From contig CM049317.1 in the NCBI GenBank assembly GCA_026874595.1, forward strand, positions 13,878,882-13,942,881: DNA of 64,000 bases, in the 5' to 3' direction. This DNA comes from Sipunculus nudus. Its lineage: Eukaryota > Annelida > Sipuncula > Golfingiida > Sipunculidae. Numbering within the stretch: the stretch's first letter is position 1; every line of letters starts with the position of its first letter. The notes under the pieces were generated by a model. It saw only the letters and a program-made list of their open reading frames with translations. It ran no database searches and was not told the origin of the DNA. Positions 1-34,602 of this stretch are shown in pieces. The translations under genes and the position numbers were made by a program.

Positions 1-578
1 TGATATTACTAAATTCCCTCCTTTGGCAACATAACCAAACATAATTATTCTAGCTAACAAATCCTTAACTATGGCACCTTACTTATTTTCTTGCTGATAA
101 TAAGAAAATTAAACATATTATCCAGGTGCAAAGTTAGAAAGTAATGCTGGCAAGTTTCCAACTAGCCATGACATGTTGCTTTAGGGTTAAGGCCACAGGG
201 AGCAGCCAGTCTTCAAAGTTCTTCTTCTGATTGGCTGTCAGTTTTCAGGCTCATTCATTAAAAAAATCCATGCATACGGTTTACTGCCTGGTCCCTAAAA
301 TAGTGTCACCTACTGACTAAAACAGAAAAAAAATAATGGTCTTAAGCGAAAGCTTGTAGCTACCTGCACATTTTCTTGTTTATAATAAATGGTTCACACA
401 CCCAGGTAAAGACCCTTGTTTGTTTATTTCAAGCTTATTATACGATTTATTTAAAAATCTGTGTCCCCTACTTTTCACTTTCATCATCCTGCAATGTACA
501 CCATAAACACGCGACTAACATGTTTTCGCTCCTGTGTGAGTGTTTAGTAACAGCCTGTGTTCTTATTGTATTTTCCAG
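1..578. other. Non-coding sequence upstream of cGLR copy A
   Basis: AT-rich sequence with no recognisable coding exon. The reading frame of copy A stays open back to 376, but a splice acceptor (pyrimidine tract ending in AG at 577-578) lies one base before the conserved ATG at 580. Most of this stretch is therefore read as intron or 5' flank. The 68-residue upstream extension is hydrophobic near its end, but nothing like it precedes the other two copies. Confidence 0.5.
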
Positions 579-579
579 A

Positions 580-1575
580 ATGGCGTACTCCGGTGGTTCC
601 GAAGACTGGCACAGCAGCAAAGAATTCTTAGAAAAGCTTGAGAGGTTCCACGACCGCCATGCCCGTTACCCAGACATGTCGGCGGCAAAGAGGCTTCAAG
701 GAAAATTTCTAAATACACTTGGAGACGAGATGAAAAGACTGTGTCGATGGAGGATTCGTGAATACCATTACGCCGGAAGCGTGTACGAAAACCTGAAGAT
801 CGATAAACCGGATGAGTTCGATATCATGGTGATCATTGAGGACAAAAACCTGCAGGTGAAGTCATCTTCGAAAGGAGGATTCTACTACTTGTCTCCAGGA
901 TACCAGAGCGATGGCCAATGGAGCAAAGTTTTGGATTACTCAGGAAACGTGTCATCGACCAAAATGCGGAATGAGTTTTATTCCATCGTGACCAGAGCAA
1001 TCCAGAACTGTGACTTCACCCAGATGGGGGCCCAACTAAAGCAGCGTGCGCACGGCCCTGCAGTTCAGGTTGATCTTCAGATCGAGGTTCCGAGTGAGGG
1101 ATTCATGTTTAGCATCGACTTGGTCCCTACTCTCGATATCAATGGATCGTTGTACGTAGCCAAGCCTTTTCCTGGCGACGAGACCAGCTGGCGTATTTGT
1201 ACATCACTGCAAGAGAAACAGAAACTAGACGGGATTGACCGAGACAATGGCTGCAGGAAAAAGTCTGTCCGGATACTGAAGGCGATGCGACAAAAAGAGG
1301 CGAAGTTCCAGACGCTCGCGTCGTATCATTACAAGACATCAATGTTCCACGTGTCTGGCCAGCAGCAGGATTGGAGACAGCAAAACTTGGGTCAACGCCT
1401 GATGGACATTCTTGCTTATATACAAACCTCTCTGGAAAACCGTCGGCTGCCGCATTATTTTCACCCTGATATCAACTTGCTGGATACCGTGTCTGGTACA
1501 GCCTGCCAGGACCTGGCTTATCGTATCCAGCGTTTGCGAAAAAGCAAGACGGAATTCTTCAGACTTCTTGAATGA
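580..1575 (+). CDS. cGAS-like receptor (cGLR) copy A, intact
   Basis: This predicted 331-residue protein belongs to the cGAS/Mab-21-like nucleotidyltransferases. Members sense nucleic acid in the cytosol and make cyclic dinucleotides that activate STING. From the ATG at 580 the protein shows the GS motif at residues 66-67 (AGSVYENLKI), the metal-binding E-x-D pair at 79 and 81 (DEFDIMVII) and the third catalytic Asp at 180 (FSIDLVP). The Mab-21 C-terminal lobe follows: WRICTS near 204, GCRKK near 224, ASYHYKTSMFH near 247 and an all-helical end with DLAYRIQRLRKSKTEF. Vertebrate cGAS has a zinc-thumb H/C cluster in this region, and it is not evident here, as in many invertebrate cGLRs. The start was chosen because copies A and B share an acceptor one base before it. 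The coding sequence is one exon. Ligand and product cannot be read from the sequence. Mab-21 proteins without enzyme activity are the alternative, but the complete catalytic triad argues against that. Confidence 0.9.
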   Translation: MAYSGGSEDWHSSKEFLEKLERFHDRHARYPDMSAAKRLQGKFLNTLGDEMKRLCRWRIREYHYAGSVYENLKIDKPDEFDIMVIIEDKNLQVKSSSKGGFYYLSPGYQSDGQWSKVLDYSGNVSSTKMRNEFYSIVTRAIQNCDFTQMGAQLKQRAHGPAVQVDLQIEVPSEGFMFSIDLVPTLDINGSLYVAKPFPGDETSWRICTSLQEKQKLDGIDRDNGCRKKSVRILKAMRQKEAKFQTLASYHYKTSMFHVSGQQQDWRQQNLGQRLMDILAYIQTSLENRRLPHYFHPDINLLDTVSGTACQDLAYRIQRLRKSKTEFFRLLE

Positions 1576-2395
1576 ATTCCCTGTAACCAGTGCGGCATTG
1601 GGATAATTTTTGGTAGTGCTTTCAGCTTGATGAATGAATAAGACTAGTCTAAAGTATTAAATTGATTATTTCATTCAAATCTCTACAAGATATGGTGATG
1701 GTACGGATAAAATCTTTAGATTATCAAATCAATGCCGAAGTATATCGAATTCAGTCACTGGGGAAATATTCAATAACAACTTATTTTTTGTCAACAGACA
1801 GCAGAGGGCATTTATACTGGACACGACTTGTGGATGACCCAAGGATATTTCCTTCTTGAGAGAGGGGTCAATTGACTTGCCTGTTTCAAAGTAATGATCG
1901 TTTTCCATTGTAGCAATTACCTTTTCCTAGTTATCTCATCCCTTGCTTTAATGAAAACTAAGAAATGTTATGAAACAATTTATCAATTTGGAATTCAGTC
2001 TCATTTAATTCGAAGTCGCCCACAAAAGAAGGACGGCTAAGATTTATTGGTCTTGTCTTGAATTTCCTATTAAAGCAGAAGGGTACTCTCTGTACAAGTC
2101 TTTTGCTTGACAATACATCATTGATATCATATAATGAAAGCTATCTTGACTTAGTTTAAACATATTGTAAATAGGCGATTGGCTAACAGCAAACCTGTTA
2201 TGTATATATGCCTTTACTTGAAAATGTTTAAAAATATGAGCTTACAGGCCGGGGTTTCACTAGCGGACGAGCACTATATTTTTAGTATAAAAATTTATCT
2301 TTGTTGAAATTGAATTTGCTTTTCACTTCGCTTTTCTTGGTTGGTTTCTCTAAATTACCACAGTTGTAGACCTATATTGTAGCATTTTACATGAT

Positions 2396-2552
2396 AACAT
2401 TCTGGATGGAGGAAATAATTGTTTGCAAGCTAGGGATAAGAACCTGTATTAGAAAAGTATCCGGATTGTTTTATTAATTATGCAAAAACTAAGAGAAAAA
2501 CGCATTTATTTCTTATTAGAAATAAATACAAATAAATATATAAATACTGTAT
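2396..2552 (+). repeat. Direct repeat, copy 1
   Basis: About 155 bp beginning ACATTCTGGATGGA and ending ATAAATACTGTATGA. It recurs with scattered substitutions and small indels about 595 bp downstream at 2991-3151. No terminal inverted repeats were noticed. It looks like a local duplication that has diverged. Confidence 0.8.
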
Positions 2553-2737
2553 GAAATAAATTACATTCAAAAAGATTTTCTTGTTTGAGTGAGATGTTGA
2601 ATATGTGGAAGAACACTCTCTGTTAAGTTTGGACTTCAAAAGGCCCGTACAAAACCATTCTGAAGAAGAGATTATACTGATTTCCTTGCCAAAAAGGTAT
2701 GAATGTTGATAAGCACACAATAAATTATTTCTGATTC

Positions 2738-2762
2738 CACACACACACACACACACACACAC
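2738..2762. repeat. (AC)n microsatellite
   Basis: Uninterrupted AC dinucleotide run of about 25 bp. Confidence 0.95.
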
Positions 2763-2990
2763 ATTTCGTTTGCTTGGGTACAACTGTGACATAACTGCAA
2801 TTAGAAACTGTGTATAACCGAGTGAAACGTAAAAGTTATATCCAGTGTTATACAGTTGATAAATTTACCAATTAAAAAGTAATTTCCAAGGCAATTCATG
2901 CTCAGAATTGCAGAAAATTTTACTATTGTGAAAATCTTGAGTTCTAAATTGTTAACCCTATGATAGGAAATAAATAATATATTTATATAT

Positions 2991-3149
2991 GTACATTCTG
3001 GATGGAAGAAATAATTGCTTGCAAGCTAAGGAAAAGAATCTGTATTAGAACAGTCTCCGGATTTTGTGATTAATTATGCAAAAAACTGAGAGAAAAAATT
3101 CATTTATTTCTTATTAGAAATAAATACAAATAAATCAATAAATACTGTA

Positions 3150-3151
<2 letters not shown>
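2991..3151 (+). repeat. Direct repeat, copy 2
   Basis: Second copy of the unit at 2396-2552. It runs straight into a long AT microsatellite at its 3' end, where copy 1 instead continues into unique sequence. Confidence 0.8.

Positions 3152-3200
<49 letters not shown>
3152..3200. repeat. (AT)n microsatellite
   Basis: Pure AT dinucleotide run of about 48 bp. Confidence 0.95.
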
Positions 3201-3201
<1 letters not shown>

Positions 3202-4623
3202 CTTGTTGATGATAACCCATATTGTGTATAGTTTCCATGTCTCTTAGCGTTTTATAATAACTTTTTTTGTGATATTTCTAGAAGCAAATTAATGAAGTAG
3301 AAAAACATTAAAGATTCAGGATCTAATAAACGTATAGCATTGAACATTATTGGGTTCTTAAATACGGCCAATTTGTGATCACCATGGCACAGCTGACTCG
3401 CATTCAGCTAAGCAAACATGAATCTTATTTGAATTGGACGTTGACCTCTCTCACACAGATATAAGCGATAAGCAAGCTTTCCAGAATGGCGGTATCACAA
3501 ACTACTTAAATCATTCCAAGAGGAAGGTTAAGCATAAGAAACCTGACTTCTGACATGGTAGATAAAGAAAATCGACAGTCCGTATCAGAAGTAAATCTCC
3601 CAAGCCTTGAAAAGGTTATCGCCTCCCCCACTTTCGCTTTTCGTCTGCGTGTATGAGTACTGATGTGTTTGTGTATTTGTTCACACCATAACTCGCGCAA
3701 TCATGAACGGAATCTCTTGAAATGTTCAGAGCATTTCAGGAATGTGCCAATAAAGAGTCGATTAGATTTTGGTGAGGATCCGTCACAGGGTCCGGAACCA
3801 GAAACGTCATCAAGGAATATTCACAAATGTACAGTCGCTTTTGCACGAATGAACGTTGCAATGTGGGCGGAGGCTTGCATTCAGTGGAATGCAGATATCG
3901 AGTTATAGTATAGGTACTAGCCCAGTGTTAAATGCGGTGGACTACAGGCAGATGTTTAATACGTTCTTTAATGGTGATACCTAATCGACATCCTCCACAT
4001 CTGCTCACAATATATTTGAGTTATCCTTGGCTCCTCCTATATGATTATATAATAAAATATGATATCGTCTTCAGCGAACAGACATTTAAAAATTCAACTC
4101 AGAAACAATACCATGAAACATACATTTTATCCCTAGAAGCTTTCAACTTGGATATTCAATGGTTCTATGCTGTTTCGTACATTAAACATATAAATCTTTT
4201 TTGCATTCCGATTTTACAATAACAATGCATTTTCCTTTTGTAAATCAACATTTTGCTCATGCATGAATACGTCCTAGCTCGAATGTAGGTCATTTACATT
4301 AAAATCTATTCTTTTCCCTTAGAAGAAGAAAATTTACCAGTTAATTGAATAATACAAGAAATATAAACATTCCTTATCTTCATATAAGATGGGAGTGACT
4401 TCAGAAGTGATTAGAATGTCAATTTTAAATTGCATAATACATTCGATATTAATAAATGGAATACTATATCTGATATAGAAATTGTCTAATTGGAAAAATA
4501 TCATCTTCGCTTCCGTCGTTGTCATCACAGGTCATACAGATATATGTTACAGCTAATTTTGGGTTTCCTATTTTCCATTAATTGAAAAATCCATAAGTCT
4601 CTGCTACTTGGTGAGAACTGTAT

Positions 4624-5633
4624 TCAATATGTTAATTCAATGAGCTTGTAGAATTCTATCTTGCTTTTCCGCAGGTGTTTGATTCGATACGCAAGGTCCA
4701 GGCAAGCAGTTTCAGAGACCTCTTTCAGCAGGTTGATGTCACTGTAAAAGTAGTGTTCCATCTTATGTTTCTCAAGACATTTCTGGATGAAAGCAAGAAT
4801 ATCCATCAGGCGTTGACCCATTTTCCCTTGCTTCCAGTGCTTGGCCCTCTTTCGTTTTCTGGCTTCATGGAACATCGCCATCTTGTAATGAAAAGACTCA
4901 AGCGTCTGAAACTTTGCTTCTCTTTCGCTGATTGCTTTCAGAATTCTGACACATTTTCTTCTGCAGTCATCGTATTGGTCGATCCCATTCACTCTCGCTT
5001 TTTCAGGCAATGATGTACAGATACGCCAGCTAGAGTTGTCACCAGGGAACGACTTAGCGACGTAGAGTTGACCATTAACTTCGAACGTCGGCACCAAGTC
5101 GATGCTAAAAACAAGCCCTCCGCCACTTTTGCTATCAGAGACATCTATCTGGATCGCAGGACCGTGGGCACGCTGCTTCATATTGACTCCCAAGCGTTGT
5201 TTGAACAAGGATTCTGGATTGTCTTGGAAATAATGGAATAAAACTCGCTCCATACCTTTCTGGATGACACGTGACCCTTATCATCAATCTCTGGGTCCCA
5301 AAGGCCTGTATCATGATGAATTGCTGGTGTTAAATAATAGAAACCTGCTTCAGGCGATCTTTTGGCTCTAAGGTTTTTGCTGTCCACCACTACCATGATG
5401 TCAAATTCGTCGAGGGAACTGATCTTGAGGTCCTCAAAGGCACTTCCGACAAAGTAACTCTTCTGTATGTCCCATTTACACAGCTTTTTCATTTGGAATC
5501 TTAGAAGACCTATGAGGCTTATGTTAACTTGGTTGTATGTTGACACACTTGGAAACCGGGCATGCTGATAATGAAATGTTTCAAGTTTCTCCCAAAATTC
5601 GTGGCTGCTGTGCCATTCCTCAACCTTGGCCAT
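4624..5633 (-). pseudogene. cGAS-like receptor copy B, single frameshift
   Basis: This is a paralogue of copy A on the opposite strand, covered end to end in two overlapping frames. Codons from the ATG at 5633 give the N-terminal half with GSAFEDLKI and DEFDIMVVV, so the GS and E-x-D catalytic residues are present. The second frame gives KQRAHGPAIQIDV, FSIDLVPTF with the third Asp, WRICTS, CRRKCVRILK, FHYKMAMFH and the complete helical C-terminus to a TGA at 4624. The frame changes near 5203-5206, where copy C has TGTTTC and copy B reads TGTTC, so one T appears to be missing. An acceptor AG at 5635-5636 lies one base before the ATG, exactly as in copy A, so this is not a retrocopy. Everything else is intact, so a recent inactivation, a null allele or an assembly indel are all possible. 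Confidence 0.88.
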
Positions 5634-7208
5634 TCTGCAAAAAAAATCTGTATTAATTGTTGTTTACTTCTGTGGGCAATTAGTGCGATTGTCTGAAGTT
5701 GCCTATGAGTTTCTGAGATCACTGCACATACGCAATTTATACCATTAATCAAGTCTACGATTTTCCAATTATGTGCAATGAAATGCCCAATAATTTTTAA
5801 CAAAAGGCAAAACCATATGAGATTCGCCACATTCTACTACTACAAAAAAATTGTCGCAGCTGCTCTCACACGCTACCATTTCCTAAGAATGTCTACAATA
5901 TCATGGTAAATATGAGATACTCGAAAGAAATAGCAGCTTGTGAGGCATGCTTAAAAGATGCAGGGAAACGTAAATGTCGACCTAAATGTAAAGGGCTATA
6001 TTCTATTAAAGTCGGTTGTAGAGTGTGAACTCCTGGATTATGACGAACGGACGATACTGATATGCGATGTTATTGCGAAAAGAATGTCGAAGATCACCTG
6101 GGGTTTACTATTTATAAATCTTATATAAGCAGAATACCTTTCTGTGTTGTCTTCTGGTAAGCTGTGATACTGACACGTCTTCTCTTTCTGGTATATATAG
6201 TGTCACGTAAAGATAGTTGTTTATAAACGACTTTGATCATATGATTACGTCACCTCAGTTTCCATGTAGGTTCGGGGAAATTATGTCAGCTGTAGTGAAA
6301 ACCTGCTATACAGTTATCTACTCACGGAAACCCAGATCAATAAATCAAATAGATAGATAGATAATACAGTTATAATCATATAACAATGTCTTATTTCAAG
6401 CAATTTGTATATTTATGACTGAAAGGGGCTATGTTGCCAGCACAGCAACAATCGTCAGGTTTGCTATATTACCCGTAAAGGTAAAATAGACTACTGGATC
6501 TTATCTCAAGCGCCTTCCCTCTCGATGAATGTAGGTATTTAAAGTCACCTAAACAGCAGGATTCAGGAAAAAAGGGGTCCAACCCAGGAGTTATATTGAC
6601 AAAACCTATGATAAAAATGTCTCCAGTTCTGGAAGGGGGGGGGGGGGGATCCAGGAAGAAAAATTGGTCTGAAATCATAAAAATGGTTATTTTGGCTGGG
6701 GGGGGGGGGGGGGGGGGGGGGTCCGGACCCTCTTCTAAGCTTTAGCTCCGATGCAAATTAACTAGACATAAGATTAGATGACGTTTCGGGAAACAGTTTG
6801 AAAACATGATCGGGGAAATAAACATATCAGGATGACCAGATCCAATAAACAATTTGCATATATAGATTCTTAAATACGGATGATATTTTATCGCAGTGAC
6901 CCACATGATTCACAACCAGCTGAGCAGAATAGTTATTGGACCACACAAGTTTATTATAAACTGGGTGTTCACTTCATTTACAGAGAACGTCCCACTAATT
7001 ACATTATCACAAGTACATATAGTTCGAGGAGGGAGGTTACTGTATTATATTATTATTGGGAGGTTGTGTTATTACTCGTGTCTGTGTGTTTCTCTGTTAG
7101 CAAAAAAAAAATAGTTTGCGCGGGGGGTGGGGGGGGGGGACACGGACGATGCACGCAAGACTGCAGTAAATTTTCGCTTCCGACCTGTCAATCATGCGTA
7201 ACCAATTG
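5634..7208. other. Intergenic, no gene seen
   Basis: Sequence 5' of copy B. It includes a short (ATAG)n stretch near 6350, two long G runs and AT-rich filler. No coding exon or RNA gene is supported. Confidence 0.5.
6635..6721 (+). repeat. Two long poly-G tracts
   Basis: G runs of 14 bases (6635-6648) and about 24 bases (6698-6721), separated by about 50 bp. They could form G-quadruplexes, and their exact lengths are likely unreliable in the assembly. Confidence 0.85.
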
Positions 7209-7330
7209 ACCAATCAGACATCGTCATTTATGACGTGATCGCCACGTGTTGAGTGTCCGCCATATTGTTCCATTACTCTGTGGGACCATGCGCACGTGGA
7301 TGTGACAGCACCTTTGGTGGGGCTTTTGCT
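7209..7330. promoter_or_regulatory. Possible promoter-like motif cluster
   Basis: A locally GC-richer stretch contains GACCAATCA (CCAAT-box-like), TGACGTGA (CRE-like), CCACGTG (E-box) and CGCCATATTG in about 70 bp. No gene with a supported first exon follows on either strand, so this is only a motif coincidence or a promoter relic. It lies upstream (5') of copy B, which is on the minus strand, but 1.6 kb away. Confidence 0.2.
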
Positions 7331-7745
7331 TCCACGAACGACGGTTCTCAGGAGTGCATAGGGAACTCGCAACGGTGACGAGAGATTACCTGAAAGGTTG
7401 CGGAGGGGCCAGGCTTATATTAATCCCGAAGACTAAACTGGCGAAATGTTTCCGGTGGATCAAAAAGTCACCCAGGGGCGTATTCATAGGGGGGCGCAAA
7501 GGGGCGGGCGCCCCCCCCCCCCTAAAATTCTGCTAACACTTATACCAGTCAACTACTGGCAAGTGTTATGTTTGTTAACACAAATTTATTTTATGTTATT
7601 TTAATTGAGTATGCACACACATAGATATAAAATATGGCGTTTTAAGTAAAAAAATATTTTCATGTTTCTCTATTCGCGGTTATGGTAATGTTATTCCCAT
7701 ATGGAAAAAAAAAGAAGAAAAACAAGAAAGATCTTGCTTGTAATG

Positions 7746-7747
<2 letters not shown>

Positions 7748-7790
<43 letters not shown>
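7748..7790. repeat. (AT)n microsatellite
   Basis: Pure AT run of about 43 bp inside the putative transposon at 7473-9253. Confidence 0.95.
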
Positions 7791-7792
<2 letters not shown>

Positions 7793-8670
7793 TATATAAT
7801 AATGTATATTTATTATCAGTTCTAAAGGTTCCTATTAACCTAAAGAGAAACTAGTTTTGTTGTATTTGTTGCAATTTTGTGAAGAAAGAACAAAAGTTTA
7901 GCAAGATATTGTTCGTAATGTAAATGTAAAGAGTGTCAAACTTTGAAAATTTCTAAAATAAATCAAAACAGTAAAGGGATTATATACTTACACATTTCTC
8001 TCATTGTTTTTACTATCTCTCTTTTCTATTTTGTTTGTGTGCAGAAGTGAAGTCTCCAACCCTGTGATTGTTCTGTAACAGTATGGTGGATGGCCAAAAA
8101 CTGTTAAACAATCCATGCAAGCTATTTGTACTTTCACTAAACGCTTGCTATGCCGTATTTATTAAATTTACCCTGGAATACACCTGGAGACTATATGAAA
8201 GCTTCCGGTTTCTTGATTCTAGAATCACCTCTAAATACCCAGCTACTGTCACTGGAGCTAGATGGCAAGGCTTTATGTCAGAAAGCTGCATTTTCAATAA
8301 TAATATAAACCTGAAAATGGTATGCAAATAACAGTAAGTGAGTATTTTTCACTTCTAATATTTCTTGTGTTTATGTACTTTAATTACCTCAGGTCAGACT
8401 ATCTTTATTTCTTTTTAACTCCAACTGGCTATAGTTCGAACTTAATTTCTGCAAAAATAATTTATGTACGAAAACCTACATTATGGAATTCATTATCAGA
8501 AGCTCTACATGCAAAATAGATGTAGTATCCTTTGACAGATTCAGTGACATATAATAGTTAATCCTTTTCAGTTCTTTTACGTGTGCTGACCATCTTCTAC
8601 AAAAAAGTTACAATTAAGTTACAACACTACACTTATTGATGCATGTATTTTTCTGTTGTTCAAATAATGC

Positions 8671-8671
<1 letters not shown>

Positions 8672-8720
<49 letters not shown>
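8672..8720. repeat. (AT)n microsatellite
   Basis: AT run that directly abuts the left arm of the palindrome at 8721. Confidence 0.95.
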
Positions 8721-8724
<4 letters not shown>

Positions 8725-8810
8725 AGATAAACAGTGACGCCTTTTAGATAGACTAACTAGTTTATTAACACTAGTTAGTCTATCTAAAAGGCGTCACTGT
8801 TTATCTTAAC
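8721..8810. repeat. Perfect inverted repeat, 40-bp arms
   Basis: Arms 8721-8760 and 8771-8810 are exact reverse complements around a 10-base spacer (TTTATTAACA). The outer bases are GTTAAGATAAACAG and its complement. AT microsatellites lie on both sides. The structure could extrude as a cruciform, could be a small foldback element, or could be an inversion made at the microsatellite. Confidence 0.95.
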
Positions 8811-8850
8811 TTTCGATTCAACTACAGACTAACACGGCTATACCACTTAT

Positions 8851-8852
<2 letters not shown>

Positions 8853-8898
<46 letters not shown>
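8853..8898. repeat. (AT)n microsatellite
   Basis: AT run of about 46 bp on the far side of the palindrome. Confidence 0.95.
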
Positions 8899-8904
<6 letters not shown>

Positions 8905-9105
8905 GGGTCCCACGGTTAAAATAATAAACAACTTGAACTAGATACCTTACAAAATTACAAATAAAAATCATAATAATTATGCACGAACTAATAATATTTG
9001 ATATGTTTAGTAGGAAGCAATTTAACAGCCACCCAGTTTAAATATGCTTGCTTCCTACTAATAGGGCTTTGTGGAATATCACTATAATTTAAAACAAGAT
9101 TTATA

Positions 9106-9108
<3 letters not shown>

Positions 9109-9168
<60 letters not shown>
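9109..9168. repeat. (AT)n microsatellite
   Basis: AT run of about 60 bp, the longest in the window. It generates a meaningless Ile-Tyr frame on the minus strand. Confidence 0.95.
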
Positions 9169-9170
<2 letters not shown>

Positions 9171-9977
9171 CATGTCTTAAGGACACAGAACAGCCCCCTT
9201 TCCCGACTTTAGGGCTGCGCCCCCTCTATTTTCAAATCTTGGATACGCCACTGTCACCCATATCCGAACGTTGCCTTTACTGTCTCGGGGTAACCAGTTT
9301 AATTTGCCATGGTGCAAGGCTGAGAATTACACACCGGGTCCCCCGGGCCATACTTTTCTCATTTCAGTTTACAGTTTTCAGGGTACAGTTGTCCCCAGTG
9401 GCCCACTCAGTGGAACACACGCTTGCAACAGTGTTAACTGTGGACCCAGTTTGGCTCTGCATATATTACAGAGTAACAACTGCATCTGACTCTTATTAAT
9501 ATTGAAGCAGTTAGAATTCAGCCCTTGACTTGGCCTTGCCATTGAGAATTTGCAGTGCATTGAACTTTAGAAAGAATTTTATTCTTTATGTGGAAACAGT
9601 AATGTATAGTTTTAGTAACAGAAAATATATATGATAGAAAATAATGTATGGACAGTGCCCATTCTACACTCTGCAGACACGGTCTGCATGTGGCAAGTGG
9701 ACGCGTACCACAAGGTTAAGAGTGGAATAAAGCTTTGTTGGAATACGCCCAAGTCATCATAGTACTAATAGAATTATTGACAAATGTAGGCCTATATTGA
9801 TCGTGACAATTATGAGGCTCAACTTCTTTGGCTCAACTTCCTTGTCTTGTTAGGAGAACTTTCAATTCCAGTTCAAACCTGTAGTTAACCCTTTCTCCAT
9901 AAGGTTTTCCGCTTTATATAGTTTATTTATGGCAATGTAAAGTTGGTTGTCTTTATATTTTTTTCATTGTTTTACAG

Positions 9978-10138
9978 AGAGACTGCTTCATTTGCCAGGA
10001 TATCTGCATTTGAACAACAGAGAATGGTCACAGCAAATGGAACAAGTTTTGAACTCTCCACATTTTAAAGGACATCATGGAGTCCACAATCCATCTGCAC
10101 CACTGGCTTCATTGATTGTCATATTTCTGACAAAATAG
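9978..10138 (+). CDS. Possible orphan terminal exon (weak)
   Basis: A good acceptor (pyrimidine-rich tract ending TTTTACAG at 9977) is followed by about 53 open codons ending in TAG. The residues include RLLHLPGYLHLNNREW and FKGHHGVHNPSAP, a composition that looks more protein-like than nearby random frames. No upstream partner exon or known family could be identified, so this may be a relic or chance. Confidence 0.18.
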
Positions 10139-10379
10139 GGACATTTAATTTCTACAAAAGGAAAGTTAAATGCTGGGAGTCTGAATGTCGAGAAAACCTA
10201 CATAGTGAGGATGCAAGCTGGTCTCTAATTTAACATTCCAGATTGTCATAAACTTGGACATTACACTCCAGACTCAAAAGTTTATTGAATAGAAAAGACT
10301 CACAACAAACACATTAACTTATTCTAATTCAGCAATTAATACACAGATAAAAACAAGACTCATAATTTTTATTTCCTTT

Positions 10380-11008
10380 CATAAGTTTTTTTTTACACAA
10401 ATATACTTTTACATCAATATTTATATGACAGTATATCACTATTGTTTATAAAATAAACATATCACGTAAGTTTGTTCTTGAATATCATTTAAATAATATT
10501 AGAAATTGACATTTGTGATGCAGATGTTCTGGCTGTATGTCACTGTAACCCTCGTTTAAATGCTTAGTACTGTTCAGAAACTGTTACAGGGGAGGGATAG
10601 GGCAGGTTCAGATTCCAACATCCTTCAATCTCCGGGTTATGTTTTGCTTTTTGCAGCTGCACATATTTGGTCTACAAGCAGATATTTCAGTTATGTTCAT
10701 AAGTTTTTTTTACACAAATATACTTTTACATCAATATTTATTGACAGTATATCACTGATGTTTACAAAATAAACATATCACGTAAGTTTGTTATTGAATA
10801 TCATTTAAATAATATTAGAAATTGACATTTGTGATGCAGATGTTCTGGCTGTATGTCACTGTAACCCTCGTTTAAATGCTCAGTACTGTTCAGAAACTGT
10901 TACAGGGGAGGCATAGGGCAGGTTCAGATTCCAACATCCTTCAATCTCCGGGTTATGTTTTGCTTTTTGCAGCTGTACATATTTGGTCTACAAGCAGATA
11001 TTTCAGTT
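10380..11008 (+). repeat. Recent tandem duplication, about 318-bp unit
   Basis: Two adjacent copies (10380-10697 and 10698-about 11008) start at CATAAGTTTTTTTT and end at GATATTTCAGTT. They differ by only a few substitutions and small indels, which suggests a young duplication. No coding content was recognised. Confidence 0.92.
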
Positions 11009-11067
11009 TTATTACAATAAATTTGAAAGACTAGCATCGTACATTGGACCATATTTTCAATGAGGGC

Positions 11068-11080
11068 GGGGGGGGGGGGG
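11068..11080 (+). repeat. Poly-G tract
   Basis: G run of about 13 bases in otherwise AT-rich sequence. Confidence 0.85.
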
Positions 11081-13601
11081 TGTCCATAATTATACATATA
11101 TTTATATTGAAACTAAATTCAGACTTGAAAGCCCTTGGTTTTGGTAAAGTATGAAGAGCATTAATACATTGGCAAAGCAGTGTAGTGCTATATTTATTTG
11201 TGTGACTCAAATGTACCAGGCACATTGTAAAACATATAGTTACATCTGATTTTTACATCAGATATTTTCATCTTAATAATGATCAAATGAATTTTTGGTA
11301 AATACCATACAGGTTATGAAAAAGTTAGGAAAATGAATATGCACTGGCATCAACTGTGTCAACCTTGGTATTCAAGCAATGTAGTGTTTGTGTTCAGGCT
11401 GTGTGCACATGGCATATAAAAACATCTGATATGGCCATAACAGGTCACAAGTCCAGTCACTAATAAGGGAATAAAATTTAAAACCAGTTTCTTTTTTTTT
11501 CCCTCTATTATTTGGCACGGTAACACATCAGCAATCATTTAAATATACATATTATATATTAAATATAAAACCTTATAAGTGTAAGAGTGGGGCGATAAGT
11601 TAAAGATAAGATATACTAACTCATAGTGGTGTCCGTTTTGCAGACCACTTTTCCTGGACTCCGTTGGACAGGCTACCATAAGCTGGTTTATCAGCACAGG
11701 TACATTCCACTTCTGAGGTGTGCTCGTGCTGCTGAGCTCAGCAGGAATGCTAGTGAATTTCAGCCCCCGGAAGGATTAGGGTCACTTCACTTAAGCAGCT
11801 GGCAGGCTGATGTAGGGGCAAACAGAGGGGCAGGGCTGGGCACTGGGCAGTCTATTAGCATATGGCTCCGTGTGCGCATCGCTGAACCTATATCTATTCT
11901 CCTCATGTAATTGCAAGTTTGTCATAATGCTTTAGATAGGAAATCACCATGACAAAAAAAGGTGTTCTCGGGGCATATGCAACAGTGATTCCAGATACAA
12001 GCACAGAGATCACATGAAGGGAATTGATTTTGTACCCTTCCCCAAGCCAAAGACCAATCTGGAGAAGTGTAAACTCTGGATAAAGCTCTGTGGACGACCA
12101 CATCAACAACTTAATGTAGACAAATTTGTCAGTACAAATATATCTGTACAAAGGTATGTAATATTATATAACTATATTCCAGTACAAACGTTGTTGCTTG
12201 TATAACAATTATAGAAAATCTACCTTATATATATATAAATAATTATTTTCAAAACTTGGCATCACGTACATATATATGCCCCCTACACATACCTTCACAG
12301 TTTTAGTGCATATTTAAAAAAGTTTTATTTTTCAAATGATCATTCCAATCACATTAAAACTATGAAATCTAATAAAATGATGAAAACAACATATCTGTTG
12401 AAATACATTTATTATATGTGTAACATATTACTAGGCCTATCAATGAACTGTTTTGCAGCATTTTGTGGACAGATGGCCAACAGCAGAAAATCCCGATCCA
12501 TTACCTGCTGACCATTATGATATGATTTAAAAGAAATGTGAATAATGTAAGTAAATCTTACCCTATTTTACATGTGATATGTGACTTAGTTGATATGTCG
12601 TCCTCTAGCTTGAACTAAAGATTCGGGGGTCCAAGGGCAAGGCTTCCGATCAGATTGTCCTGTTCAGAGCGCCATGCAGCACCGGGATGTCACGCAGACG
12701 GCTTCGCTCCCGATGTTTTCCTACATTTTGATAAAATCTGAACATGCACATATCTCTGATTCTCTCTTTAAAGTGTTCTGTAACAGGATGACTTGTCCTG
12801 GCAAAACTAATCTGATATTTTCTCAGGGATATGTATGTGCAAGCGAGTCGCTCGGTGCCGCCATGCCATGTTCTCGTATACTAGGTACATGCGCCCGTTT
12901 GGACAAATGTGGGATGAGCAACCGTCGTTAAGGGTGGCAGGGGTTATAGGACCAGCCGTCGGAAAACCAACTGCTTCATTTCCATAACTGTGCTTAAAGA
13001 CAGCCTACATAACAGTGCAGACATCTACCAATTTCACATTCTTTGTTAACTGGCGCCTGCCAGTGTGTATCTGATAAGCTGTAAATGACAGTCAGCTGTG
13101 ATCACAAATAAACTCGTCGAATCTAAAAATGGCAAGAGCAATGCAAATACACATCTGTTGATCGACTTTTTATTTCCATATGGTTCATGTAATAAATTAT
13201 CCTGAGGGGTTTGCTGACGTAACTATATACATATATATGCAGCAAAGTGGCATAGACTTTGTTGACAATATCTGTCCCCTTGATCAAAAGGGAAAAAAAG
13301 TTCTTAACAGGTTTTTTTGCACAGGTGTGACGCATGGAAATCCCGGCCCTCTGGACTGAGCGATTCGTTGACATGATCACGTTAGGTACTATGACTTATA
13401 CACTGTATAATCAACTATACATTGGTCGGGGGAACGTGGAAGTAATTCAGTCTTAACCAGAACTCTGTACAGCCACAAACGTTTACATCTGCAGGTAAAT
13501 CCTTATTTATATGAACGATAATGCTCTGCTCACGTATATGTATTGTCAGTGCGTTTAAAGTATGTGTGTGCGTGTGTGTTTAAAGTATACGTATAAATAC
13601 A

Positions 13602-13638
<37 letters not shown>
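13602..13638. repeat. (AT)n microsatellite
   Basis: AT run of about 37 bp, preceded by a short (GT)n-like patch. Confidence 0.95.
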
Positions 13639-13639
<1 letters not shown>

Positions 13640-14904
13640 GTTGGTTTGTTACTTGTGCCATCGGGAAAGCTTACACCTTGGAGTTCTTATTTGAGATTAT
13701 ATTGCTACATGCATTATGCATCAATTTACGTTATGTTCACTTTTACAATCTCAAGAATGTAAACTCCTCACTATGTTTAGTCCTTATTATAGAAAAACTG
13801 CAGTTCTCTTACCGATTTTCCCCACAGTTTATCTACATATACGCCTTCAGAGTACACAGGAAAACTAAATACTCCTCACTAGCATGGTGGGGAGAAAAAG
13901 TATTTGCTTGAGAGAGTCTGTACTTAGCTTGACTGGTTATGAAGATATCACATACGCAGGCATTGTACGAGTACGATAGTTAAACAATTTATTCAGTGTT
14001 TGGACGATGTGAAAAATGAAAAATAATTTATTTGTAGAATATATGTGATTTCTGACTGACTCTGCGTACATATACAAAAAGCTATATAGGTCATGCCTGC
14101 TGTGAAAGGTTCTTATCATTCTCCTCTGTGACTTATACATGAGCTTGTTTATTTACAAACGCGCGCATAATGACAAACAAAAATAAATACCGAAGGTGGT
14201 TGGTTGCATATGTGCGAAAGCTGGAAAGGTAACTAATTGCAAAACTCTGGTTGATCCGACATGCCGTCAGTTGTCACCGTTGAATGAGTCTGAAGGCCTC
14301 TTCATGCTATGATATAGCCTGGATATAAACAAAACTAATGTCCTGTGTTCGGTCAAATCGGCGTTTTCATGTCTAATCTTTAGTTTATAGGGATTATCTT
14401 CAGTTAATAAACGGATAGGTTCATTCAAGTAGGCTGAGTGGATGGTCCGACGCAAAACCTGCAACTAAGCTTTGAATGGCACTGCGGTGACGTAAATTGT
14501 GTTCTTGTAGTATATAGTCATATGTGGTGTTGTAGGATACCTCACAATTACAAAAAGTGACCAAGTGGTTCATGACGCTCAGCTGACTGACATGTTGGTT
14601 GTGGCTTTGATATTAGAAGCATTTATAATTTTTGGTACAGGTTGTCTTGAGGGCACTGTACATAAGCGTGTAATTTATCCAAATGAGGCCACATTTACTT
14701 AGGATAGATATACAGGGTAAGGACTAAAAGGGTCAATATGTGCAAATGTGGCGTTATTCTACACCATGATTATAGCGCTAATCAGGACTGAACATTTAAT
14801 ACTGCTTTTTATAGAGAAAATGATGTTTTCGGCGCGTAGTTTGCAGAATATAGTTTGCCATACTGCGGCCTTTGTACCAAATATTTAATTATGCCCAAAC
14901 GCGC

Positions 14905-15010
14905 CCCACAGCTCGGAGAATATAGGTCTCAGTAACCTAATTTCCAGTTAAAAAGATTTTTAAAGGGTCCCCATGGAAATTCAGTGGTAAGTTCCTAGTT
15001 TCCCCTCTCG
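14905..15010 (+). repeat. Dispersed repeat, copy 1
   Basis: The core AGCTCGGAGAATATAGG followed by a cAGTgAC-like segment and TAATTTCCAG recurs diverged at 21075-21215. Related tail wording (TTGTGCCCTATTAAAAGACAG) occurs near 16,979. It appears to be an old, low-copy interspersed repeat of unknown class. Confidence 0.6.
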
Positions 15011-15395
15011 CGTGAGATGGGTGACATAATTCAGTTGCAAAACAGTCGTTTATTTATTATAAACACAATTTCATCTAAGTATAATTATAAATTTTACCCA
15101 AAGATAAAGCCTGTAAATAATTCAGTGGACAAAGTGATGAAAATGTGTATACGGCTTTCCATCTTTACAAAAAGATAAAATAGAATTAATAATAATCTGA
15201 GCATCTGTAAGAAACAATACATACTAGAATGTGAAAGCATTAAAGTTTACAACTTTAAACAAACAGAAATAAACAAACATATTAGTATCTATGCGATTTT
15301 ATATATCCTTCAAAGACAAACAACATTGTAACCTTTTGTTTTCGACAGATCAAAGTCACCACCAGTCTGACATACAGGGATTCGTTTATGTAAAA

Positions 15396-16235
15396 ATGGC
15401 CTGTCCGGGCGGTTCCAAGGACTGGTACAGCCGCGAAGAATTTGTGAAAAAATTGGAGCGTTTTCATGGCGAGTACGGCCGTTTTCCAAATATGAAAGTC
15501 GCAAACCAGATCCATACAAGCATACTGGGCATGCTAAAAAGTGAGATAAGACAGTTGTGTGATTGGAAGATAGAGAAGAAATTCCGCTACGTTGGGAGCG
15601 TCTATGAGAAACTAAAAATAGGTCGACCAGATGAATATGACGTCATGGTCATTATAGAGGGCAACAGCTTGCGATTGAGTCCATCCTCTACCAGTGGATA
15701 CTCTTATTTGTCCCCGAAACATCATTATGGTGGCAGTATGTGGGATAAAGTACTTGATGAAAACGGCAATGTGTCGTCCATAAAAGTGCAAAGTGAGTTT
15801 TATTCCATAATTTCCAGGGCGATGGAGAAACGCTGTTTCAGGAAACGTCTTGATATCTGTTTGAAGGAACGCGCGCACGGTCCCGCCATACAAATAGATG
15901 TGTCAGACAAGAGGAAAAAGAGCACGGATGACAATCATCTAATTTTCAGTGTCGACTTGGTTCCTGCATTGAAAATAAACGGAGAGTTATATGTAGCAAA
16001 GCCCTGCCCGGCAGAAGCCACAAACTGGCGTTACTGTACATCCGAACAAGAAAAGGCAAAACTAAAAGGAATCGACACTCACAACGGCTGCAGGAGGAAA
16101 TGCGTGCGTATACTGAAGGCAATCAGCGAAAGAGAAACGAAATTTAAGACGCTAGCGTCTTTTCATTACAAGATGGCGATGTTTCACGTGGCGGATATGA
16201 ACAGGAAGAGATTTCAGCATATGAAATTAAAATGA
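15396..16235 (+). CDS. cGAS-like receptor (cGLR) copy C, C-terminally short
   Basis: This is a third paralogue of 279 residues from the ATG at 15396 (MACPGGSKDWYS). The nucleotidyltransferase core is complete: GS at 67-68 (VGSVYEKLKI), E80 and D82 (DEYDVMVII), and the third Asp at 187 (FSVDLVP). WRYCTS, GCRRKCVRILK and FHYKMAMFH follow. The protein then ends after an unrelated basic tail (NRKRFQHMKLK). It lacks the final roughly 60-residue helical segment seen in copies A and B (from QRLMDIL onward), and no remnant of that segment is visible downstream. The residues inserted between the second and third catalytic strands (KRKKSTDDN) are longer and more basic than in copy A. The one-base-before-ATG acceptor of A and B is not conserved. 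The nearest candidate is ATACAG at about 15378. It could be a divergent receptor or a decaying copy. Confidence 0.85.
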   Translation: MACPGGSKDWYSREEFVKKLERFHGEYGRFPNMKVANQIHTSILGMLKSEIRQLCDWKIEKKFRYVGSVYEKLKIGRPDEYDVMVIIEGNSLRLSPSSTSGYSYLSPKHHYGGSMWDKVLDENGNVSSIKVQSEFYSIISRAMEKRCFRKRLDICLKERAHGPAIQIDVSDKRKKSTDDNHLIFSVDLVPALKINGELYVAKPCPAEATNWRYCTSEQEKAKLKGIDTHNGCRRKCVRILKAISERETKFKTLASFHYKMAMFHVADMNRKRFQHMKLK

Positions 16236-17659
16236 AACACATTCTAATTGGATTTTTCATTAATCTACGAAAGGAATATGTATCTTGTGGATTATCAAAA
16301 GTACCAAGTCTTACACGAGTAAAGTGGAGAAAAGACTGCTGAAACTTACCACCAAAGGTCAATATATAAAACCAAGCTAAAATCTTATGTAAAAACATAA
16401 TTTCTTAGATTATTAGATCAGCAAATTTCAGTAATACCCTCTCCGCCTGGTCCCGGCATCATTTAACAAGGAAATCACTCGCTAAACTCACAAGCTATAT
16501 GTGAACTCGCAAGTGAAGCCACCCCTCATGGATATACATGCACACTGGCTTGACATAGTCTATCCTCAGATCAAAACGATACCAAATTCGTGCATGTGCG
16601 TTATACAAGCAGTTTAAACTTCAAGGGGCGTAATAAAACATAAAAAAAACGATGAACTGATTTGCAAGCCCTTGATTAAAGTGTAATCCATTATTAAGCT
16701 CTGAATCGATTCATTTTATTATTATTATTTTTGCATGGATGATCCCAAAGTCCTCTGTGAAATTTCAAGTTTGATGGAGTAGTTCGCGATGTTCAAGCTC
16801 TTTTTATCGTGTATTTGGCCTTAATCTACTTTAAACATTCGCTAGTGGACTACTCCACTCGAATAGAAACATAAATGGGGGTGGCACCTAAAAGGGAGTT
16901 ATATTTTTTTATTTACTGAAATTTACTAACATCAATTTTGGTAAATCTCCCTGGATTCTAGGTCTAACAGTTATGACTTGTGCCCTATTAAAAGACAGAC
17001 TGCTTCATCTAAAGGTTAAAATAAATGCGTAAAAATTAGAAAAAATACAAGTTGCACCACCTGTCTTCAGGAAATGATGAAAACCCTCCATAATCAAAAT
17101 ACATGTAAATAATCATGGAATTACCGTATTAGACGTAATCAGCCCCCCCCCCCCCCACACACACACACAGATTTTGGAGATCACATTAAGAAAACTAAGA
17201 CACTCGAGCCCTCCTAACCTCACTTTTCTGCCTAGCCAATATAAAGTGGCGCGATGCTTTCATGTTTCAAGCCAAAATTAAAATTTACCGCCAGGTTTAA
17301 ATCTACCTTCAACAGGCTTTATCATCTTATATAATAATAATATTACTTGCACACAACAGAGTAAGTGGTCAAGTGTGTCATAGGTTACAAGGACAGACTG
17401 TGTCCGTGAAGGCCGACCCTGCAGGTAGCCATGCTAATCAGGTTACCTGAATTCGTGTACGTATGTGGATGTATCATGCTACGAAATATATTTAGTTGGT
17501 GTTTTTATTTCTCATAAATTATATGTTCTCTTTGAAATGATATTTTTAAAACATTTGAGACGTATTTTGTCCATATGCCGGTTTGGATGACTGACCGCCA
17601 CCGTTGTCATTGTGCAAGGTCTGTCCCCTGACGATGACAATCCCCGTGGAATTCAGGTA
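16236..17659. other. Intergenic, no gene seen
   Basis: AT-rich spacer between cGLR copy C and the hAT-like element. It includes a poly-C/(AC)n tract at about 17143-17170. Part of it (about 17457-17540) resembles the sequence just right of the hAT element (20440-20520), which indicates an older local duplication that the transposon interrupted. Confidence 0.5.
17143..17169. repeat. Poly-C plus (AC)n tract
   Basis: C run of about 14 bases running into ACACACAC. Confidence 0.85.
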
Positions 17660-17667
17660 CGTATGTG
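17660..17667. repeat. Target site duplication, left
   Basis: CGTATGTG directly before the CAGCGGCG terminus. It is identical to the 8 bp directly after the right terminus. Confidence 0.85.
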
Positions 17668-19229
17668 CAGCGGCGTACCTAGCCTCATTGCCGCCCGGGG
17701 CGGTCCCAGAAATTGCCGCCCCTCTAACAAAACATTACAAAATTGGATTACATATTGAAACATATCGTTTCAAATCTCCTTGTTACAGGCTTGTATTTGA
17801 CAAAAACGCAATAATATGGATTCACTGGCAGGGAATTCTTCCGCCACATATTAAAGAGTAGACATCTCTTTGCTAATGTAAAACAAAAGATCGCTCGAAG
17901 CTCATTATGAAGTGAACAGAAAGGATTAAAACGAATAAATTGTACCTATTAACAGATTACACTGCAGGATACACATATAATGTGGGAAATTGATCTTTCA
18001 TCGTTCATGTAAACACGATTCATGATTACTTTATACTCAACTTGGAGAAAAAACTTTATATGGTGAGTGTTATTCCATTCTCAACGCATACAAATACATT
18101 GTCACATCTATAATTCCACCTCTTGTTATCGCATATGACAGCAGGTACACCTAATAGAGCTATTGAGAGATGCATGGTACTGCTGCATATATGTAGGCAG
18201 GGCATGATTAATATTTTCACATAAAAAAATCCACTGTTTGGACAAACTGACTTTGTTTAATTAAAATATCCTCAAAGTATAGAGCATACTTTAATTCAAG
18301 GCTACATCAAAATCATTTTAGAATTATAGTGATTATGCACTTTGCGAGGTTTTATTTATATACTTATGACTATTTGTTATTCAATAAAGTGTTTAAATAA
18401 ATTTCGAGTAATTATATAATTAAAATATATAATTTAAATATATATTTTAATTTAATTTCAAATGATTTGTCACAATATACAACAATAGTCTATTGGTAGA
18501 GGATCATTAAAATGTTAATAACAGAATAAACAGTACAGGTAAATATATCTTTAATTTAAGTTTTGAACTCTAAAAGTTAAAACTGACACTTTATACGTAT
18601 ATTGAACATGTGGCTAAGCGGCCAGGGGTATTCATCCCGCCGGACAGTTATAATAGAATTATATTTTAAAGTTAAAATAATTCCTACATAGGTCTGGGTG
18701 CTTATTGTTTTTATTCAGGTTACATAAAAGATTATGCAGGTCATATTTGTTAATTAAAAAACACAGGCATTTAGGTAGTACTCATTATATACACAGTGTA
18801 AACGTCTGTATTTTAACCAGACTGATGTTAGAGTATGAAGAATTATGGAAAAAGGGCATTTCACGTTGTTTCAGGCTGTTTAAATATCCTGGAATCTTGA
18901 GAATTCAAGGGTTCAAGAATGGAAATTCTTAATACTTTCCAAGGAAAGAGCAATACTATTCTTCAAAATATTTTTCGCACAATCTGTACGACAGACACCT
19001 TACCCCCACCACCGAGGGCCATTGGTCTTCTGGCAGGGTTTTTCCCCTGGTAATTATCAGGTGCTGCAAGGGATTTCTGTAAACGACGACCGCCATGAAA
19101 TGCAGGCTTTTTGCATGATTGGGCAGTTTATCGATGGCGTTCTGACATTGCAAGACCACAGATCTAACAAAGCATAACTACAGATATGTATTTCTTTTTT
19201 ACTTATAGCTTGCCTCAATGAGATCGTCC

Positions 19230-20385
19230 GGAAATAATTTGGTTGGTTCCAGTTTTTAATCCCTGAAATGCCGCCCCCAAAAAATGTTCAAATCGTTCGC
19301 TAATCATTTTGTAGGTTCCACTGTCCAGTTTATAATCCCTGGAATACTTGAACATAGGACAAAAGGGCCAAATTTGTTCCTTTCGAGGAACGCCTTATGC
19401 CACTGATTATACTAAATCCCAGAAATGCCGCCCCAAAAAAATGTTCAAATCGTTCCCAAATCATTTTGTAGGTTCCCCTGTCCAGTTTATAATCCCTGGA
19501 ATACTTGAACATAGGACAAAAAGGCCAAATTTGTTCCTTTTGAGGAACTCCTTATGCCACTGATTATACTAAATCCCAGATATGCCGCCCCAAAAAATGT
19601 TCAAATCGTTCGCTAATCATTTTGTAGGTTCCCCTGTCAAGTTTATAATCCCTGGAATACTTGCACATAGGACAAAAAGGCCAAAATTGTTCCTTTCGAG
19701 GAACTCCTTATGCCACTGATTATACTAAATTCCAGAAATGCCGCCCCAAAAAAATGTTCAAATCGTTCGCTAATCATTTTTTAGGTTCCCCTGTCCAGTT
19801 TATAATCCCTGGAATACTTGAACTTAGGACAAAAAGGCCAAATTTGTTCCTTTTGAGGAACTCCTTATGCCACTGATTATACTAAATCCCAGAAATGCCG
19901 CTCCAAAAAATGTTCAAATCGTTCGCTAAACATTTTGTAGGTTCCACTGTCCAGTTTATAATCCCTGGAATACTTGAAATGAGACAAAAAGGCCAAATTT
20001 GTACCTTTGAGAATTCCTTATGTCACTGATTATACTAAATCCAAGAAATGCCGCTCCAAAAAATGTACAAATCGTTCGCTAATCATTTTGTAAGTTCCAC
20101 TCTCCAGTTTAAAATCCTTGGAATACTTTAACATGGGACAAAAAGGCCAAATTTGTTATCTTTGAGGAACTGCTTATGCCACTGATTATACTAAATCCCA
20201 GAAATGCCGCCCGAAAAATGTGCAAATTGTTCGCTAATCATTTGGTAGGTTCCACTGCCAATCTCATATCCCCTGAAATACTTGAAATGGGACAAAAAAG
20301 CCAAATTTGTACTTTTTGAGGAACTCTTTAAGCCAATCATTATGCCAATTCCCCGAAAAGCCGCCCCCAAAAATGTGCCGCCCGG
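19230..20385 (+). repeat. Tandem array, about 157-bp units, 7-8 copies
   Basis: The landmark TGCCGCCCCAAAAAA recurs near 19267, 19425, 19582, 19738, 19895, 20048 and 20205, with a terminal degenerate copy near 20360. Each unit also carries TCCAGTTTATAATCCCTGG and CTTATGCCACTGATTATAC. Central units are the most alike and edge units are diverged, as expected for unequal exchange inside the array. Confidence 0.93.
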
Positions 20386-20407
20386 GGCGGAGCGCCCCTG
20401 CCGCCCT

Positions 20408-20423
20408 CCCCCCCCCCCCCCCC
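20408..20423. repeat. Poly-C tract
   Basis: C run of about 16 bases just inside the right end of the hAT-like element. Confidence 0.85.
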
Positions 20424-20439
20424 TTTAGGTACGCCACTG

Positions 20440-20447
20440 CGTATGTG
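20440..20447. repeat. Target site duplication, right
   Basis: CGTATGTG immediately after the CGCCACTG terminus. It is identical to 17660-17667. Confidence 0.85.
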
Positions 20448-22694: not shown

Positions 22695-22796
22695 TCATCC
22701 ATCCTTTTTGATGCCCACTACGGAGTTTATCTTCCCCTGTAGATACTGTACTCTCTGTACCACATTTTTCAATGGTCCAAATTCTGTATATGGCAC
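22695..22796 (-). CDS. TBRG4: FASTKD4-like exon 6 (RAP domain end)
   Basis: 102 bp after a GTACAG acceptor. It encodes VPYTEFGPLKNVVQRVQYLQ and ends KKDG plus TGA at 22695-22697. The frame and the RAP-like VPYTEF show that it belongs to this gene, although it lies after the TAG of exon 5. Confidence 0.8.
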   Translation of the reverse strand: MPYTEFGPLKNVVQRVQYLQGKINSVVGIKKDG

Positions 22797-33561: not shown

Positions 33562-33568
33562 TTTCCAC
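32256..33568 (-). CDS. TBRG4: FASTKD4-like exon 1 (coding)
   Basis: Begins after a TTGCAG acceptor (33571-33569), seven bases before the ATG at 33561. It ends at CAAG before a GTTGGT donor (32255) in phase 1. It encodes the presequence and about 435 residues of helical repeat. Confidence 0.85.
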
Positions 33569-33571
33569 CTG

Positions 33572-34602
33572 CAATGACAAAAGAATTACTCAAAAATATA
33601 AATGACATAGTATTTATTTGTGGAATGGTCACACAATATGTGGCATGTTTCATTAAAGGAGATCAAAATTTTGTGAATACAAATAATACAGAGCCCCCAC
33701 CTAAAGCTTAATTTTCCTGTTCAAATTGTAAATGGTTTCCCATTTTCGCGATAGATGGCGCTTCAATAGCAGATATAAATGAACAAAACTCGCTCTTGCT
33801 GGTATCTCGTCTTCACATCTCGTCTAGATATTGTAGGTTTGATTCCTGATTCAGGCGATTTCTGATGCTTAGTAGTTGTTTATGTTAGAAGAATTGAGTG
33901 TAGGGACATCTACAGGGAAAAGTAGGAGTTAAAACAAGGAAAGAGAGAAGACAGTTTCATTTATATTTTCCTCAACAGAAGCAAAGCCCGCGTTCTATAG
34001 TGGCTCCTGGTATTTTTAATCATATTGTTTCTTCATACAAATATTAAACTTTAGTTTAAAGCAAAGTCACGGCATGCCATATGTCACTGACACTTGACAG
34101 CTCTTCAAATCAGTAATGCCCTCATTATCGCCCCCATTGCAGCCCGTGCCATCTGACAGGAACATTGCATCGTTGTATACAATAAATTTGAAATAAGAGA
34201 ACTTCATATGAATAACTGGAGTGCAAAAACAAGTTTCTCAAAGTTTCACTTGGTGTCTATATCTGTACCTGGGCAAGGGCAAGTAACGGTGCAGTGCTGT
34301 CTGTCAAACGGACATCCTTGACCTTGACTGTCGGTATGGACTAAACCTTGAACGTCGAAATTCAGATGTGGGATAACAAGACTTTCAGCAACGTGCAATG
34401 GTCGACGTCAGGTCGGGATTAATAATGGATTGTCCGACAACAGGACAAAGAAGAACATGTATTTTCTTTCTGTATGTTCCTCTTGCAAATATACGTATTA
34501 CTGAATATTTATGATATATTTAAACATTAATTTAATTTAATATTTATATGAGTTGCTTCTTTCATACATTATATTCTGTATATTTTGATTATTTAGAAAT
34601 AA

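Follow-up and report, generated by a model that had tools for sequence, protein, structure and literature searches.

Expansions of cGAS-like receptors (cGLRs), enzymes by which animals detect foreign DNA or RNA, are already known. In PMC9980059, large cGLR radiations are described in bivalves and cnidarians, together with an oyster and a coral in which STING is present in several genes, oyster enzymes that produce 2'3'-cUA, and an isoelectric point (pI) above 8.5 for cGLRs sensing double-stranded DNA or RNA. As to the mitochondrial fission receptor MiD51 (MIEF1), it is listed as Mid51 among animal cGLR paralogs in a 2023 study (PMC10732462), and a 2012 review (PMC3578726) stated that MIEF1 was not found in invertebrates. 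In this work, we analyzed a 64,000-nucleotide stretch of the Sipunculus nudus genome (the window; C12:13878882-13942881), in which the original prediction placed a cluster of three cGLR genes, A, B and C, in alternating orientation. The genome comprises 1.43 Gb in 153 contigs, those named below being labeled C2, C8, C10, C12 (CM049317.1, where the window lies) and C16.

The core of that prediction, namely a cGLR cluster that has its full catalytic set and evolves by birth and death, holds up. In our judgment, these genes probably form part of a clade of soluble nucleotidyltransferases (NTases) with the Mab-21 fold, which duplicates locally and belongs to the cGLR superfamily, and of which A and a further copy, B', would be working cyclic-dinucleotide enzymes, since the catalytic triad is complete, the donor-nucleotide residues are conserved, the sequences are under purifying selection, the proteins are basic and anchor-free, and the copies stand at several stages of decay. 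They resemble the animal cGLRs, as described in PMC9980059 and PMC8410604, in combining an NTase with a helix-bundle domain, in the GS loop and acidic triad, in being soluble, single-domain, basic and multi-copy, and in the presence of STING genes in the same genome. In the literature on cGLR arrays and on MiD51/MIEF1, judged by title or the start of the abstract, no such array was found; what is new is the split in the active site and the geometry of the array reported here, not the existence of a cluster.

A five-copy array and its sister array

With A as query, the copies were searched for by tblastn in the window and in 28 retrieved loci, and then across the entire genome (35 matches), which has 69 Mab-21 exon matches. 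Re-reading of the frames, Pfam and tblastn returned A, B and C at the positions, on the strands and in the states predicted (intact, frameshifted and shortened, respectively). Copy A (580..1575, +) is a complete single-exon coding sequence of 331 amino acids, open from the first conserved Met at 580 to the stop ending at 1575, with G66 S67, E79 x D81 and D180, and scores 68.8 bits for the Mab-21 NTase domain and 79.2 bits for Mab-21_C, each above the cut-off of 24.1 bits. Copy B (4624..5633, -) is open apart from one frameshift at ~5196-5211: two overlapping minus-strand frames (5178-5663 and 4624-5277) align to A residues 8-143 and 148-331, with the frame changing once in the interval from about 5211 to 5196, and carry all the catalytic residues between them. 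Mab-21_C was recognized on the second piece, and the NTase pieces score 23.8 and 19.3 bits, each below the cut-off. Copy C (15396..16235, +) has 279 codons plus a stop, with a full NTase domain (55.4 bits) and a shortened C-terminal domain (Mab-21_C 20 bits, below the cut-off), as its frame stops inside the helical domain. A search of window positions 15901-34000 for the missing C-terminal part gave one chance-level match (E 1.4), and C was rejected as a two-exon gene with its remainder in that interval. The relatedness of the copies is far above chance: with A as query against the whole genome, C was matched at E 3.8e-88 and the B pieces at 1.4e-69 and 1.6e-37.

The whole-genome search also recovered the further copies that had been expected near the window, so that A, B and C, real as they are, belong to an array of five rather than three genes. 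Upstream of the window on C12 lie A' (C12:13848175, +), which is 92.7% identical to A over two joined pieces and has a frameshift near residue 254, and B' (C12:13854341, -), which is intact with 338 amino acids. The predicted alternation extends over all five, with strands +-+-+ for A', B', A, B and C. A sister array of the C12 array is found on C16, consisting of E (C16:16586144, +), F (C16:16596970, -) and G (C16:16612060, +), all open; E is without an ATG at the conserved place and probably starts on an upstream exon. A, B', E, F and G exceed both Pfam cut-offs, and C fails Mab-21_C.

Directly upstream of A, a pyrimidine tract and CAG (576..578, +), one base 5' of the ATG, form a likely 3' splice site. 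The same arrangement of a pyrimidine-rich stretch followed by CAG is found in A', B, B' and G, with TAG in F; no clear splice acceptor was seen beside the ATG of C. From the shared CAG or TAG one base before the ATG, we infer a non-coding first exon upstream of a single coding exon.

Catalytic residues and purifying selection

As predicted, the G-S, E-x-D and distal D are present in A, B and C in the alignment; moreover, the loop G and S and all three acids are kept in 8/8 copies (A, A', B, B', C, E, F and G). The positions of human cGAS R376, S380, E383, K414 and K439 are likewise conserved in 8/8 copies, and that of Y436 is Tyr in A, A' and B' and Phe in the remaining five. Nei-Gojobori counts for 8 of 28 pairs gave Ks 0.16, Ka 0.035 and a ratio of 0.22 for A/A'; in the other seven pairs, synonymous sites were saturated or nearly so (pS 0.74-0.85), with pN of 0.22-0.35. 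These counts indicate that the clade containing A has long been under purifying selection.

These data bear on whether the copies might be pseudoenzymes, that is, Mab-21 proteins that bind a ligand without catalysis, as suspected for MAB21L1. The same clade does hold an open 324-aa paralog, L040 (C16:21172559-21173455, -), without GS, E-x-D or distal Asp, which looks like a pseudoenzyme, and the positions of cGAS T211 and S378 are altered in the C12 array. Against this, the triad is kept in all eight array copies, despite identities of only 39.8-54.0% between pairs other than A/A' and B/B', and we regard loss of catalysis in the array as very unlikely. MAB21L1/2 share the fold and the domain families with the copies; they differ in that the MAB21L-like protein of the same genome, so named for its similarity, carries N-G, E-x-E and Q where the copies have their catalytic residues, and groups with cGLR1 8gjy.

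A split in the guanine-contacting residues

In cGAS, T211, S378, R376 and S380 lie within hydrogen-bond distance of the guanine, according to PMC4897736. The T211 position is occupied by Ala in A and A', by Val in B, B' and C, and by Thr in E, F and G; that of S378 is Cys in 5/5 C12 copies and Ser in E, F and G. In these two contacts the C12 array therefore departs from vertebrate cGAS and the C16 array does not. Since Thr and Ser also occupy these positions in the four genes read of a MiD51-like array on C2 (described below), the change would, by parsimony, be derived on the C12 branch, a branch supported at 81/80 only.

The C12 array may accordingly have a changed product specificity, although the position before GS should not be over-read, as it also varies in eight other Mab-21 proteins (see below). 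A literature search on T211Q found no paper. Two sister arrays with the same catalytic and donor residues and two differing guanine contacts constitute a natural experiment on which residues set the product of a cGLR.

Motif, fold and phylogenetic placement

Several observations weigh against the assignment of the copies to the working cGLRs, the first two being differences from described animal cGLRs. The residue before GS is Ala or Val in 5/5 C12 copies, which thus depart from the strict motif h[QT]GS of PMC9980059, with Thr, as the motif has it, in 3/3 C16 copies. This position is variable among Mab-21 proteins, being Ser, Cys or Ala in 8/8 further ones (L029-L035 and L041) and Thr in L003 as well as in the four genes read on C2, so that a change there says little by itself. 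The rule is not absolute either, with Lys in cGLR1 8gjy. A looser wording, with a G[S/G] loop and an [E/D]h[E/D] ... [E/D] triad (PMC9980059 and PMC8410604), covers 8/8 copies. Secondly, in each of the five C12 copies the second and third acids are spaced more widely than the nominal X50-90. The difference in position is 99 in A and A', 101 in B', 105 in C and 97 in B, when its pieces are joined without the frameshift stretch; it is 101 in E, and 91 in F and G, which leaves 90 residues between the acids, within X50-90. Human cGAS, with acids that we take to be 227 and 319, would itself lie one beyond this range.

Thirdly, the AlphaFold model has a mean pLDDT of 55.5 and its helical lobe is unreliable. 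A cGAS fold of the NTase lobe is suggested by a fold comparison, in which the 50 matches listed were all cGAS entries; that MID51 was not among them carries no information on MID51. Among solved structures, A matches best to cGLR1 (8gjy, 2e-23), and a profile of six family sequences ranks 8gjy (1.9e-35) before cGAS (9.7e-29) and MID51 (3.2e-26). The zinc ribbon of cGAS has the motif H-C-C-C; the copies differ from vertebrate cGAS in that no His/Cys cluster was seen by eye in the alignment between the W-R-x-[SC]-x-S and I-L-K stretches, where such an insertion was looked for.

Finally, the best trees put the clade of the copies (the A family) on a branch away from cGAS. In addition to an earlier tree, three were computed: the first with MID51 and the C2 gene L007, the second also with L040 and L041, and the third with MID51, L040 and L041 omitted. 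The A family is one clade in all of them (87/91 in the earlier tree, 100/99 in the first with MID51 and 99/99 in the two later ones). A split of the family, MID51 and the C2 array from cGAS, 8gjy and MAB21L was supported at 94/91, and at 94/90 with L040 and L041 added; the corresponding split of the third tree, without MID51, reached 97/93. In approximately unbiased (AU) tests, which were picked after the trees had been seen, a clade of the family with cGAS gave p-AU 0.075 and 0.076 with MID51 in the tree (not rejected), and 0.036 with MID51 and the two long rows, L040 and L041, left out. For a grouping of the family with the C2 array alone, the two trees containing MID51 gave p-AU 0.051 and 0.020. 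A sister position of the family to cGLR1 8gjy was rejected (p-AU 0.008, first tree with MID51). The A family is therefore placed, tentatively, on the MiD51 side, a position that is preferred though not settled. With regard to a possible grouping with non-catalytic Mab-21 proteins, none with MAB21L was observed, as MAB21L groups with 8gjy (93/91; 97/92 with L040 and L041; 94/92 in the third tree), yet the tentatively nearest branch is that of MiD51, the vertebrate member of which lacks the E-x-D pair in the alignment.

It might be argued from this placement that the copies are MiD51-like and non-immune, acting as nucleotide-binding regulators of organelles or metabolism that merely retain NTase residues. 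The best solved-structure match of G is indeed MID51 (4e-24, over one stretch), and V-A-K-P, G-C-R and I-L-K-A-I stretches are common to MiD51 and the copies. We consider this explanation unlikely: the three acids are kept in 8/8 copies whereas MiD51 is without E-x-D, the top match of A itself is cGLR1, and the clade with cGAS was not rejected in the trees containing MID51. Further, an N-terminal membrane anchor was found in none of A, B', C, E, F and G (6/6), in which the highest KD19 values (0.86-1.21) are all internal. In a Pfam scan of A, B, B', C, E, F and G, MID51-like_C remained below its cut-off of 27 in A (12 bits), F (12.2) and G (21.9), with B', E, C and both B pieces unlisted.

A lone Mab-21 protein on C8, L041 (C8:71325144-71325977, +), has GS and E-V-D with Asn as the third acid; it matches both 8gjy and MID51, and its place in the tree is not resolved.

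A MiD51-like array with an intact active site

The C2 array (C2:61.66-61.73 Mb) contains five Mab-21 genes, of which four were read (L007, L043, L044 and L045). The catalytic set GS / E-x-D / D is intact in 4/4 of these, and their N-terminal hydrophobic stretches have KD19 values of 1.28 (weak), 1.81, 3.03 and 2.17, respectively. They group with MID51 (95/93 for L007 alone, 90/88 for the four genes), and L007 has MID51 as its best PDB match (2.2e-27). Such MiD51-like genes, with their catalytic residues intact, are relevant to the origin of a mitochondrial fission receptor within a family of enzymes.

A more speculative scenario, which we put forward as possible but rather doubtful, is that, after the C12/C16 split, T211 was replaced by Ala or Val and S378 by Cys in the C12 array, with the catalytic and donor residues unchanged. 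One animal would then run two soluble cGLR sister arrays with different cyclic-dinucleotide outputs, beside a membrane-anchored MiD51-like array with an intact active site, and MiD51 would be what remains, without catalysis, of a lineage of second-messenger enzymes in invertebrates.

Alternating orientation, duplication and decay

Neighboring genes lie in opposite orientation at 4/4 junctions on C12 and 2/2 on C16, compared to 4/35 in the other eleven Mab-21 arrays. Here, an array was defined by gaps of <60 kb, same-strand matches <3 kb apart were merged, and B, which was missing from the Mab-21 exon matches, was added by hand. In this post hoc test, Fisher p was 4.7e-5 with six junctions and 1.9e-4 with five, the latter count allowing for A-B as a probable duplicate of the A'-B' junction. 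If the C12 and C16 arrays are separate groups, alternation arose on two occasions, an outcome to be expected of repeated inverted duplication. Grouping by array was obtained in the third tree (C12 81/80, C16 93/93, neither starred); the order among A/A', B/B'/C and E/F/G was not resolved in the earlier tree and the first with MID51, nor were E, F, G and L040 resolved against each other when L040 and L041 were added. The two arrays as copies of one block were rejected, as the genes cluster by array rather than by position (modest support) and the neighboring open reading frames (ORFs), among those listed, differ by eye.

Within C12, the A-B spacer (1576..4623), between convergent A and B, contains three pieces that resemble the A'-B' spacer (about 69-74% identity), and the A-B pair was therefore probably duplicated as a block. 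In the DNA comparison, the A-A' tract is 85.7% identical over 1.7 kb, with 81-84% in the upstream flank, compared to 68-74% for the spacer pieces and B/B'. Since the A-A' tract is more alike than the spacer pieces and B/B', A/A' would have been refreshed either by a second event or by gene conversion.

Birth and death were borne out by one intact member of each of the pairs A/A' and B/B', by the truncation of C, by an F-like relic with a stop codon (L042, C16:15497856-15498359, -) some 1.1 Mb away from the array on C16, and by L040. Alternatively, the frameshifts in A' and B could be assembly or sequencing errors, with little pseudogene decay, given that each shows one event only in a frame that is otherwise open. 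This seems improbable to us, as neither site is a long homopolymer, C was truncated by a different route, and decay is seen elsewhere in the relic and the paralog without catalytic residues. The 24 amino-acid differences between A and A' are also skewed to A' (10 against 6, 8 not assignable), a weak asymmetry.

STING-type receptors and a proposed pathway

A search with STING_LBD gave 14 exon matches genome-wide, on C10 (64.7, 66.9 and 74.2 Mb) and C16 (9.4 Mb). The expected STING-type receptor thus has candidates in the genome, but none of them is on C12, and a STING gene adjoining an array was rejected, those on C16 being ~7.2 Mb from the C16 array.

If the copies are working cGLRs, as we favor, A and B' would bind an activating ligand, probably a long nucleic acid because their pI is 9.0 and 9.4 (9.0-9.6 among the copies). 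Once bound, they would link two nucleotides to form a cyclic dinucleotide, to be read by one of the STING-type receptors. The products of the C12 and C16 arrays would probably differ, since the T211 and S378 positions are both changed in C12 and kept in C16.

Other features of the locus

Upstream of A', an insert of ~6.5 kb (L013, C12:13840517-13847033) has inverted ends of ~540 bp, 84% alike, and ORFs that by eye are reverse-transcriptase-like and endonuclease-like; it is missing from the corresponding position upstream of A (13878804). Within the window, a 316-bp direct duplication with 97% matches lies between B and C (10378-11008), and a minisatellite with 7.2 copies of a 157-bp unit downstream of C (19258-20376). 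Genome-wide, at least 141 C1q matches were counted (150 of 203 candidates scored), which, with the 69 Mab-21 exon matches, amounts to a bivalve-like domain content. Haemocyan_bet_s, MHC_I and Eryth_link_C had no match, a weak negative because the control searches gave none either. Downstream of the array, the window encodes a FAST-kinase-like protein (32233-33585, -; FAST_1, 1.2e-9), and at its end (63561-64000, +, on to C12:13945915) there are ORFs that by eye resemble a retroelement polyprotein with protease, reverse transcriptase and integrase.
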